The translations under genes and the position numbers were made by a program. A stretch of 54,605 nucleotides of DNA from Promethearchaeota archaeon (lineage in GTDB: Archaea; Asgardarchaeota; Lokiarchaeia; Sigynarchaeales; SOKP01), in assembly GCA_014730295.1 (NCBI GenBank), contig WJIN01000130.1, positions 1-54,605 of the forward strand, given 5' to 3'. The notes under the pieces are model-generated. The model was not told the DNA's origin and did no database searches. It saw only the letters and a program-made list of their open reading frames with translations. Positions within the stretch are counted from its first letter, which is position 1, and every line of letters starts with the position of its first letter. Positions 20,766-28,796 of this stretch are shown in pieces.

Positions 20766-21485
20766 TCACTCAAAATATTGAGTTATTTTTTTATTATATA
20801 GTTCTAAGTCTAACATTTTTTTTGTCGTTTCCCATGTTTTTCTTGCAAAGGGAGGTGCTTTTTTTTCTGATCGTATCCATTCTCTCAAAAACTTTGTAGT
20901 TTTTTTATCTGATGGATATCCTGATCCCAAATCTGAATATCCTAAATTAAGATATTTTTCCCTTAGATTATCGATGATTACATCTCGTTTATGTTTTGCG
21001 ATTATGGAAGCTGCAGAAACAATAGGATATTTCTCATCCGCTTTATGTTCTGAGATTATCTTATGAGGTATATAATTTAACTTCTCGACGATAAACTCTC
21101 TGAATCTTTCTTCGCTCGTGTCTGCGGCATCCATATAAATAATATCAGGTTTTAAATCATTGATAATTTGTGCGAATTTGTTTATTTCAAGCATATTCAA
21201 GTTAATAGCCTTCTCAATTCTTTGGTCTATTTCTTGAGTTGATACAATCAGTTCTTTATAACACACACACTGAGTCTTTATTAATTTTGAAAACGTGATT
21301 CGCTTTTTTTTACTTAATTGTTTTGAATCTTTTACATTTATCTCCTCTAAATATTTCAAATTCGACTCAGTAAAACAGACACCACATACCACTAGCGGAC
21401 CTAAGACGGGACCTTTCGGGTGGATGAACGATATGTTCTATAAACTCCCGGCCTCATCAATCCCGCACACTAAATAATTTTTCAT
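20766..21485 (-). CDS. rnhB: Ribonuclease HII interrupted by a 30-nt putative BHB intron
   Basis: The gene reads as join of exon 1 (21485-21445) and exon 2 (21414-20766), 690 bases, 229 residues. RNase HII cleaves RNA in RNA/DNA hybrids. Exon 1 gives MKNYLVCGIDEAG, with the first catalytic acids D10-E11. Exon 2 continues with GPVLGPLVVCGV, a YMDAADTSEERF segment and SAASIIAKHKRD. Without excision the ATG frame hits a TAG three codons after GIDEAG. With it, the universally conserved DEAGRGP motif is restored exactly, Arg14 being split AG|A. A naive reading would start at GTG 21392 and give 208 residues lacking the catalytic DE, so that start is rejected. The gene is convergent with fibrillarin. 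Confidence 0.85.
21415..21444 (-). other. Putative BHB intron in the rnhB mRNA
   Basis: Reading the minus strand, exon 1 ends GCCGGGAG and exon 2 starts AGGTCCCG. The central helix pairs exon CGGG with intron CCCG (4 bp). It is flanked by a 5' bulge AGU, cut AG|U, and a 3' bulge AAA, cut AA|A, the same geometry as the tRNA introns in this window. Outside, GAUGAGGC can pair with GUCCCGUC with one mismatch and one extra G. Inside, the intron closes as GAAC-AUAUC-GUUC after an asymmetric internal loop, so the intron-side helix is relaxed. The intron carries an in-frame TAG. Length is a multiple of three, so only the stop and the 10 extra codons, not a frameshift, disrupt the frame. Confidence 0.75.
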
Positions 21486-22722: not shown

Positions 22723-23538
22723 TCAGAAGTAATATTTGAATATATTGAGAATTTCTTTACCCGTATCAGTGATAAAAATTTTCTTATTTCTTTTATCTTT
22801 TGACACGTTAATGTAGTTTAATTCAGAATTTAGTCGATTCAGATATTTCTTACTCTTCATATATTTGCTTGCTTGAAGCTTTCTCTCGTCTTTATTTTTG
22901 CTCTTTAGTGTGAGAATATTTTCCGTATATAAACTTTCTACCAAATTCTTTTTAAAAATGTATTTTTGTCTTGAATCGTCATATTGTTTGTCTTTATACC
23001 GCTCAGTAATCATTCGTTCAATCAATCTCAAGATATCTACATAAATTTTTTTTGGTTTTTTTATTGGGAAGGTTAATGGTTCTTTAATTATCATTTCACC
23101 TTTATGTTCTGGACCTTCCCCCATAGGGTCATATTTTGTAGAGTAAACATAGTAAATATCACAATTCCATAATTCTGAAGCTTCTACAGATGCGATTGCG
23201 GTGACCTTCGATCCGGATCCAACATTGATATAAATCTTACAATTTTGGTTTTCTTCCCGTTCTTTTTTGATGATTTTAGAAAGCTCTTGCATAACTTCAA
23301 TATAATCTGTATAGTCAACCTCCTTTTGAATTATCTCTAATTGTGGTAGATTTTCCTTTAGTAAACTGAGATTTTTTTCTAAATACTCCAAATTCTCATC
23401 CTTTTGGCCCGTTTCACGAATAATTGCGGTAAAATAATACATGGTGTTTGGTGGATGGTTTAGTAACGGATTAGTTATACGGTGGGTCTCTCGGGAATTG
23501 AATACTATATGAACTTGTTTAATGAACATAATAATCAC
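22723..23538 (-). CDS. CARF-like domain plus winged helix (HFX_2341/DUF6293-like)
   Basis: The 271-residue product has an N-terminal Rossmann-like domain with KIYINVGSGSKVTAIASVEAS near residues 100-120, the loop expected of CARF-type domains that bind cyclic oligoadenylates or other nucleotides. A KKPKKIYVDILR linker leads to a winged-helix tail (about 190-271). The order matches archaeal HFX_2341-type regulators. No CRISPR array or cas gene is in the window, so this is likely a nucleotide-sensing regulator used elsewhere. M4 (MFIKQVHIVF) is the more likely start, since the family begins at the first strand. Confidence 0.65.
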   Translation of the reverse strand: MIIMFIKQVHIVFNSRETHRITNPLLNHPPNTMYYFTAIIRETGQKDENLEYLEKNLSLLKENLPQLEIIQKEVDYTDYIEVMQELSKIIKKEREENQNCKIYINVGSGSKVTAIASVEASELWNCDIYYVYSTKYDPMGEGPEHKGEMIIKEPLTFPIKKPKKIYVDILRLIERMITERYKDKQYDDSRQKYIFKKNLVESLYTENILTLKSKNKDERKLQASKYMKSKKYLNRLNSELNYINVSKDKRNKKIFITDTGKEILNIFKYYF

Positions 23539-27185: not shown

Positions 27186-28796
27186 TTATATGGGCTTAAA
27201 ATTAAGAATTTTTATTAATTCTTCTTCTGTTTTAATTTTTTTTACAGTAGCATCGAAATATACCGAATTTGAATCTAATACATCATTTTTAGAAGTTATA
27301 GAGAATGGCAGAACTGTAGTATTTTTTTTAATATGTGTTCCAGGACCAATACAACAGCCATCACTCACAACTACCCCATCTTCTATTTTTACTCCTTTTA
27401 CGGTTAATTCTTTATCCCATAACTGGTTTGTAAGTAGTATTTTTCCTAAATATGCGTTTTCTCCCACATTTATAAATTCTTTTGCTAAATACATATCTTC
27501 TATTACACAATCTTTTCCAATATGACAATTTCCGATAAAATTAAAAACACTTTTAATGAGCCATGGATATGGACCTCTTTGAATTTTCCATTTAATATAT
27601 CGCAGCAGAAAAGAGCGAAGAAAATAAAAATCATAATCTGCAGATTTATCTTTCCAATGGAATACACCTTCCTTTGGGGTATTGATTTTACAAATTATAT
27701 AATAACAAATTTTAGTGATGAGCACAGTGAGAAAGATATTGCTCAGATGTAAGGTCAAAATTACGGGAGGTGTGAAAGTCAGGACCAACATAGAAAAATT
27801 ATTAAGAAAAAAACTAGAAGCCGAAGGTTTAGCGATTACCAGAGGATAAAAAATTTTACTTGTGTAAAAATATATTGCTATTAATATCGGCATATAGGCA
27901 AAAAAATACAACAATAGGAAGAGTCCTACATAAGTTGGAATCTTTTTGATAAATTTTCCCGTTGGTTTTGAAGACTCAATCGATTGATTTAGATTTTCTG
28001 ACGGTTCCAAGTGAGAATATGACAGATTTAAATTTGAAAGCTTATCCACGTAGTTTACTAAGTCACTTTTTTTACACTGTTTTATGGCAGGATATCCTGA
28101 ATAAACAGAATCCATTTCTAAAGTCTGATGATATTGAGTCATGGAAAGTGTATTTAGCACGGTATTTTTTTGTAGGATTGTTCCCGGAGATATGTAACTA
28201 TGGGGCCCGATCACCACATTATCTTCAATAATAATTTTTTTAATAACCAAGTAATCTCCAAAAACCATGCAAGATTTGATAAAAGAACCCTTTCCTAGAG
28301 TGATATTTTTACCGAATTCAATAAATTCTGTATCCATATTTGCATTATTTATACTATTTGAAAAAGATGTTTTGACTCCAAATAACGTGAGAGTAAGATT
28401 ATTTAGAACAGAGGAGGGGAGAAGACTAATAATCCAAATCGGCCACTTTTTTATAACAGATCGAAAGCTCCAAAAATAAAAATCTCGGTCTTCCCTTGTT
28501 CGTTTGAAGATTCCTTCTTTTGGTGGATGAATTAAATTTATTAAGATGAGTAATAACTTCGCGGTAAATAAAGCGGAAAATACCAATATAAAATAACCGA
28601 TAAAAACTTGAATTGGAAAGGTCAAAAAGAGAAGAATTATACTATGTTTTGTTAAATTGAAAAATAGCAAGGATTCAATGATGAGAATATAAAAGCTTAT
28701 CCAAATATTAATTCCATAAACAATTAAAAAGGAACGTGAAACTATAGTATTAGAAGAGTAGGGGCCATCGTGAGTAGATACGGGAAAACTGGTCAT
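27186..28796 (-). CDS. Membrane protein with two TM / beta-helix acyltransferase-like modules
   Basis: A 536-residue protein made of two copies of the module found alone in 26427-27164. Module 1: TM helices (about 20-90), HPPKEGIFKRTREDRDFYFW, beta-helix (ITLGKGSFIKSCMV, VVIGPHSYISPGTILQKNTVL). Module 2 starts after a linker near residue 280: TM helices, NTPKEGVFHW, then HIGKDCVIED, GENAYLGKIL and VVVSDGCCIGPGTHIKKNTTV. The genes are 21 bases apart and the 536-residue gene comes first, so three modules are made from one transcript. Their sum parallels the Pls C-terminal region. Substrate unknown. Confidence 0.6.
   Translation of the reverse strand: MTSFPVSTHDGPYSSNTIVSRSFLIVYGINIWISFYILIIESLLFFNLTKHSIILLFLTFPIQVFIGYFILVFSALFTAKLLLILINLIHPPKEGIFKRTREDRDFYFWSFRSVIKKWPIWIISLLPSSVLNNLTLTLFGVKTSFSNSINNANMDTEFIEFGKNITLGKGSFIKSCMVFGDYLVIKKIIIEDNVVIGPHSYISPGTILQKNTVLNTLSMTQYHQTLEMDSVYSGYPAIKQCKKSDLVNYVDKLSNLNLSYSHLEPSENLNQSIESSKPTGKFIKKIPTYVGLFLLLYFFAYMPILIAIYFYTSKIFYPLVIAKPSASSFFLNNFSMLVLTFTPPVILTLHLSNIFLTVLITKICYYIICKINTPKEGVFHWKDKSADYDFYFLRSFLLRYIKWKIQRGPYPWLIKSVFNFIGNCHIGKDCVIEDMYLAKEFINVGENAYLGKILLTNQLWDKELTVKGVKIEDGVVVSDGCCIGPGTHIKKNTTVLPFSITSKNDVLDSNSVYFDATVKKIKTEEELIKILNFKPI

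Follow-up and report, generated by a model that had tools for sequence, protein, structure and literature searches.

A predicted bulge-helix-bulge pre-mRNA intron in the RNase HII gene of Lokiarchaeal genomes

The rnhB locus and its interrupted frame

The window, meaning the whole stretch of 54,605 nucleotides that was analysed, carries a gene (rnhB) for RNase HII, a DNA-repair enzyme, and the reading frame of that gene is interrupted near its start. The features that matter for this gene are listed here; copies are counted over the window and 35 related genomes, 36 in all.

21485 (ATG) to 20766 (end of stop), minus strand: rnhB, the RNase HII gene, 229 residues after joining
21445..21485, minus strand: rnhB exon 1, codons 1-13 plus AG of an Arg codon, MKNYLVCGIDEAG; DEAG motif in 36/36 copies
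21415..21444, minus strand: predicted bulge-helix-bulge (BHB) intron, 30 nt, with an in-frame TAG at 21440-21438; frame-restoring removal and covariation
20766..21414, minus strand: rnhB exon 2, from the A of the Arg codon to the stop; TIGR00729 match, dN/dS about 0.13 against locus L049
52894..54372, plus strand: RtcB RNA ligase gene, candidate exon joiner; PF01139, E 1.8e-165

Unspliced, the rnhB frame reads MKNYLVCGIDEAGSL*, which is 15 codons followed by a stop. Without 21415-21444 (30 nt) the frame contains DEAGRGPVLGP and encodes an RNase HII of 229 residues, so the recomputed frames bear out the original prediction, which had described a broken ATG frame and its repair by this deletion. 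Among deletions of 3-89 nt taken from gene positions 30-69, just two regain DEAGRGP: the 30-nt one and a 42-nt one, the latter without VLGP. The joined protein scores 221.7 bits against TIGR00729 (ribonuclease HII; cut-off 123.3), and its best match among solved RNase HII chains is 1eke_A (E 1.3e-47). Exon 2 is under purifying selection, with a dN/dS of 0.13 between the window and L049; exon 1 gives 0.53 on four changes in the same comparison and is too short to judge.

According to PMC3025331, the active site of RNase H2 includes the Asp-Glu carboxylates, and recognition of the 2'-OH falls to the GRG motif. Set against these motifs, the insert lies within the Arg codon of GRG, directly behind the catalytic pair, and it does so in phase 2 in all 36 copies.

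The cell might instead ignore the broken start and make a shorter enzyme from the longest unspliced frame, which begins with GTG at 21392 and still scores 177.5 bits against TIGR00729. Among the best 120 database relatives, 15 lack DEAG near the N-terminus and several begin PKGPVLGP or similar, as if gene callers had picked such starts. This frame enters the profile only at position 18, so its product would be without the Asp-Glu of DEAG, the active-site carboxylates according to PMC3025331, and the end of exon 1 that encodes CG-DEAG is kept in 36/36 copies. We regard a downstream start as extremely unlikely. The database N-termini without DEAG suggest mis-called starts, and a number of Lokiarchaeal genomes probably have RNase HII annotated wrongly.

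Distribution of the insert in related genomes

The nearest relative (locus L001) shares with the window a collinear stretch of about 10.7 kb, 88-90% identical in DNA, and has the insert as in the window, with TAA and TAG in frame. The original prediction had named a second intact rnhB as a point that would count against it; the genome of this relative has a single rnhB match.

An rnhB match was found in 76/83 genomes of the related Lokiarchaeal class. Leaving out the matches of G022, G079 and G080, 73 class loci were read: 35 carry the insert at one nucleotide, 36 are intronless, and two are unjudged (L052, a fragment, and L114, where the motif was not found). Rather than merely sharing a codon, as the original prediction had anticipated for related genomes with and without the insert, all carriers have it at the same nucleotide. 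It is 30 nt long in 35/36 copies and 28 nt in L072 (G078), where the frame is therefore broken too. This sole rnhB insert of another length has a full 4-bp central helix, AGGG/CCCU.

In every one of the 36 copies one or more stops lie in frame; TAA, TAG and TGA are all used, and the codon positions vary. These details bear on stop read-through or reassignment, by which the insert would be retained in the protein, as a length of 30 nt, a multiple of three, would permit. All three stops at differing codons and one 28-nt insert argue against it, as does cbf5: no row listed for the class contains an internal stop, and in each of the 35 rnhB carriers the cbf5 match runs uninterrupted (in G052 and G063 it is cut at contig ends). 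We give read-through next to no credence.

A pseudogene or an assembly error would also break the frame with a stop. Such an accident is hard to square with a site common to 35 other genomes, a length common to all but one copy, and carrier copies on contigs of 3.3 and 2.3 Mb. For a pseudogene in particular, the dN/dS of 0.13, the single rnhB of the nearest relative and the finding that RNase HI (PF00075) was not found in 6/12 carriers tested all point the other way, and the probability of either accident seems negligible. Two carriers, G039 and G048, each have a second weak rnhB match (E ~1e-5) in other long frames.

Within the class, a covariance model of the intron (R1) recovers the 35 carriers and, in addition, weak 27-nt exon-only matches in G028 and G068 (E 0.003-0.004), which are intronless rnhB. 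Across the phylum, it matches exactly those 35 of 227 Asgard genomes at E <=0.001, once each and at rnhB; the scan ran under the stricter filters of Infernal and scored 24 candidates in each genome, so diverged copies may be missed. The absence of the rnhB insert outside the class is this R1 result, and the other rnhB proteins of the phylum are those among the matches listed. In the window, R1 matches 21458-21402 with 62.2 bits, the window itself being among the sequences that make up the model. The idea of a mobile intron was set aside: R1 has no match away from rnhB in the 227 Asgard genomes at E 0.001 under the stricter filters. Also rejected as carriers were G087 and G142 from outside the class: their rnhB matches contain a stop, but DEAGRGP is intact in both. 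A search of Rfam returned nothing beyond a sub-threshold snoRNA match (E 0.036).

After the intron, 13 carriers read GRGS, not GRGP (L083, L090, L093, L097-L099, L101, L103-L107 and L121), and four intronless loci have GRGC (L092, L094, L095 and L100). These changes lie close to the RNase HII active site.

Bulge-helix-bulge structure and covariation

The ends of the insert and the flanking exons can be paired as follows.

21447..21450, minus strand: central helix, 5' side, CGGG; exonic, third base of an Ala codon plus the Gly codon
21417..21420, minus strand: central helix, 3' side, CCCG; intronic
21444..21446, minus strand: 5' bulge AGU, predicted cut between AG and U
21414..21416, minus strand: 3' bulge AAA, predicted cut between AA and A
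21426..21438, minus strand: inner hairpin GAAC-AUAUC-GUUC
21451..21453, minus strand: outer helix, 5' side, GGC, partner 21410-21412; RNAalifold gives a variant
21410..21412, minus strand: outer helix, 3' side, GUC; RNAalifold gives a variant

The CGGG/CCCG helix and the two bulges with their cut sites are as the original prediction described them. It had also called the intron-side helix weak, which is true of the window copy (GAAC/GUUC); the commonest form in the relatives has about 9 bp. BHB cleavage is reported to fall between the second and third bulge bases (PMC2738675), and the cut required by the protein would come after base 2 of each 3-nt bulge, matching that rule. The 5' bulge is AGA in 34 copies and AGU in the window and L049, and the 3' bulge is AAA, ACA or AUA. 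All four central pairs form in 26/36 copies, the window included, and three of four in the other 10/36.

Covariation was scored on an alignment (A1) of 32 distinct 30-nt copies, in which identical copies count once, the 28-nt copy is excluded and L053 is aligned with a shift. For the whole BHB, 88.5% of 511 cells are paired versus 77.9% after shuffling, and the covariation score is 0.395 versus 0.204 (0/500 shuffles); when the partners are slid by 1-3 columns it is at most 0.103. Both sides have changed in 10/16 pairs, versus 5.8 in the shuffles (1/500). The central helix alone has 92.2% of 128 cells paired versus 77.6%, and a covariation of 0.597 versus 0.320 (0/500), with slid versions at most 0.139. 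On two other measures the central helix alone has no excess over shuffles: the count of pairs in which both sides have changed (2; 271/500) and that of pair types (8; 57/500). The recurrence of the insert in 35 other genomes, together with this base-pair covariation, indicates more than chance.

The wobble base of the Gly codon and its intron partner form UG in 16 copies, GC in 9, UA in 6 and CG in 5, with no mismatch. A wobble G and a partner C agree in 36/36 rows, with four changes each on the tree. A phylogeny-aware pair test for wobble G has two well-supported contrasts, both agreeing, which are too few for significance; for wobble C there are three contrasts, the partner mostly without difference, and for the Ala base one mixed contrast, both at low power. 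The exonic side also differs in its codons between the 36 carriers and the 23 intronless relatives of the same clade: Glu is GAG in 36/36 versus 15/23, Gly is GGA in 0/36 versus 6/23, and Ala is GCG in 0/36 versus 11/23, comparisons that are only indicative, the rows being related.

The results of thermodynamic folding count against the structure. RNAalifold returned the outer helix and the apical hairpin and not the central helix. Folding of single sequences was uninformative, the window copy by itself being no more stable than its shuffles (z -0.25). The BHB form of the window copy has -5.0 versus -13.3 kcal/mol for the minimum-energy fold; over 35 copies the means are -3.1 and -14.3 kcal/mol, and the BHB energy is not below zero in 10/35. 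In L074 the minimum-energy fold is itself a bulge-helix-bulge, with 3/4 central pairs in common and shifted by one.

The shortness of the gap, its apical hairpin and the early in-frame stop seen in many copies also bring to mind translational bypass, in which ribosomes would hop across the hairpin-containing gap, as they do over the gap in gene 60 of phage T4. Bypass elements have matched take-off and landing codons that yield the right protein. Here such matched codons are absent, the flanking triplets differing in 36/36 copies. The gap of the window and L049 is flanked by AGU and AAA, so that a hop cannot yield the conserved Arg, and in the other 34 copies the AGA before the gap is unmatched by the last gap triplet (AAA, ACA or AUA). 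Bypass also gives no reason for the ends of exon and intron to pair in a BHB register, and we consider it very unlikely.

Evolution of the intron

A tree was made from 72 joined RNase HII proteins, 36 with and 36 without the intron; the latter include L142 and L143 from outside the class, and L052, L114, L117 and L120 are omitted. A single clade of 59 rows (support 98/97) contains every one of the 36 carriers, with the 23 intronless rows scattered among them; L070, for example, adjoins L081 (100/99) within a group with L073 (98/90). The intron trait needs eight changes on this tree. The tree itself fits gain or loss, and one gain with several exact losses is the simpler history. The ancestor of this 59-row Lokiarchaeal clade probably had the intron already, and several precise losses would have followed. 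The cbf5 intron, which likewise lies within the codon of a key active-site residue, is described as an ancestral gain followed by losses in lineages (PMC2738675). By analogy with what has been proposed for cbf5, our guess is that losses from rnhB may have come about by copying of spliced mRNA.

Splicing machinery and proposed explanation

Genes of the tRNA-splicing machinery were searched in 15 relatives, 12 carriers and 3 non-carriers. The splicing-endonuclease domain PF01974 is present in 15/15, as two paralogues in 13/15 (10/12 carriers); the 2/12 carriers with one paralogue only possibly reflect a MAG gap, as may carrier G025, where no RtcB was found. RtcB is present in the other 14/15 genomes (11/12 carriers). 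In one pair of endonuclease paralogues, L131, aligned to 3p1z_B, keeps the His and Lys, and L140 is without the His. The chain 3p1z_B is presumably that of Aeropyrum pernix. The L131/L140 pair would fit a heteromeric, (alpha-beta)2 type of enzyme, a heterotetramer with distinct catalytic and structural subunits. The heteromeric type is reported to accept relaxed motifs (PMC6379350). Hosts of the cbf5 intron are described as having a hetero-oligomeric endonuclease (PMC2738675), to which the paralogue pair of most rnhB carriers searched may correspond. The RtcB gene lies about 31 kb from rnhB in the window, and about 32 kb away on the same contig in relative G001.

We think it very likely that the insert is a BHB pre-mRNA intron of rnhB, with the tRNA-splicing endonuclease as the predicted cutting enzyme and RtcB as the predicted ligase. 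The reading of the insert as a BHB intron, first put forward in the original prediction, gains support from sequence comparison: its recurrence, its covariation, and the endonuclease and RtcB genes in relatives. The heteromeric tRNA-splicing endonuclease would cut the rnhB mRNA between AG and U and between AA and A, and RtcB would join the exons, restoring the Arg codon of GRG and the reading frame. We infer this cleavage and ligation of the transcript from the genomes. Unspliced mRNA would yield just a short dead peptide, so RNase HII would need splicing.

cbf5 in Asgard genomes

One class member without an rnhB match, G081, has a cbf5 (locus L144) split by a 32-nt insert in the Asp codon of GTLD. 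Removing it gives GTLDPKVTG and a frame of 392 codons, and the minimum-energy fold is itself a BHB. The nearest named relative of this Cbf5 is that of Jordarchaeum, at 83%, so the gene need not be a crenarchaeal contaminant.

Among the phylum matches listed, 18 further cbf5 loci were read, and 12 of them, all from genomes other than the rnhB carriers, have a BHB insert of 17-41 nt (L145, L149-L156, L159, L167 and L168; 10 main copies plus second copies in G193 and G168). All 12 lie in phase 1 of the catalytic Asp codon, with 4/4 central pairs and an AGA 5' bulge whose predicted cut is after AG. For the rest, L160 gives a doubtful parse and five loci have none, including the first copies of G193 and G168, which look intact. 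The insert site in Asgard cbf5 is the one reported for crenarchaeal cbf5. Plausibly, then, Asgard archaea splice mRNA.

In G091, G112, G149, G151 and G165 (L162-L166 with L169-L173) the cbf5 match comes in two halves, divided at about profile position 170. About 1.4-1.6 kb separate the two halves, and the open frame reported for each is 836-902 codons long; an intein or other in-frame insertion is possible.

Relation to known BHB introns

The closest known system is the cbf5 pre-mRNA intron of Desulfurococcales and Sulfolobales, where a BHB-like motif in the coding frame is cut between the second and third bulge bases (PMC2738675). The rnhB intron differs from it in its gene, its phase (2, versus 1 in cbf5), its Asgard host, its near-constant 30 nt and its conserved hairpin. 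Splicing of cbf5 is supported by cDNA in several species (PMC2738675), whereas the rnhB intron is predicted from sequence comparison. With the canonical archaeal tRNA BHB introns it shares 3-nt bulges and a 4-bp central helix (PMC6379350), but it is not in a tRNA and has one central mismatch in 10/36 copies. The BHB of HVO_1309 in Haloferax volcanii is also an mRNA substrate of the splicing endonuclease; that one lies in the 5' UTR (PMC7714728), whereas the rnhB insert is within the reading frame.

According to a 2020 paper (PMC7714728), cbf5 was, apart from the UTR case presented there, the sole example reported in mRNA, and introns in other protein genes have been described as predicted and unconfirmed (PMC2738675). 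A literature search for a BHB intron in rnhB or in Asgard archaea, with most subscription journals and bioRxiv preprints outside its coverage, found no report. We therefore predict rnhB as a new gene for a BHB mRNA intron, in-frame splicing of archaeal mRNA having so far essentially meant cbf5 in Crenarchaeota. With a second gene, this one in Asgard archaea, which are regarded as the archaeal group nearest to eukaryotes, and with dozens of natural variants, intronless sisters and built-in covariation, the origin, loss and use of such introns become directly testable.

A bolder idea, which we hold to be unlikely, is that the intron acts as a gate which lets RNase HII be produced only while the tRNA-splicing enzymes are at work, that the excised 30-nt hairpin, which RtcB might circularise, has its own function, and that mRNA splicing is a regular Asgard trait. 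A role of the hairpin would account for its conservation and the near-constant length, and the cbf5 inserts of other Asgard lineages together with the rnhB intron would make mRNA splicing by tRNA machinery regular in this phylum. If the gate were real, the clearing of ribonucleotides and RNA-DNA hybrids from genomic DNA would be tied to the capacity for RNA splicing.

Other genes in the window

Near rnhB, at 22723-23538 on the minus strand, lies a gene for an HFX_2341/DUF6293-type protein with a winged helix and a weak likeness to Csx14. Another, at 27186-28796 on the same strand, encodes 536 residues; its product has two regions of hexapeptide repeats and a weak likeness to an NRPS terminal domain and to EIF2B epsilon.
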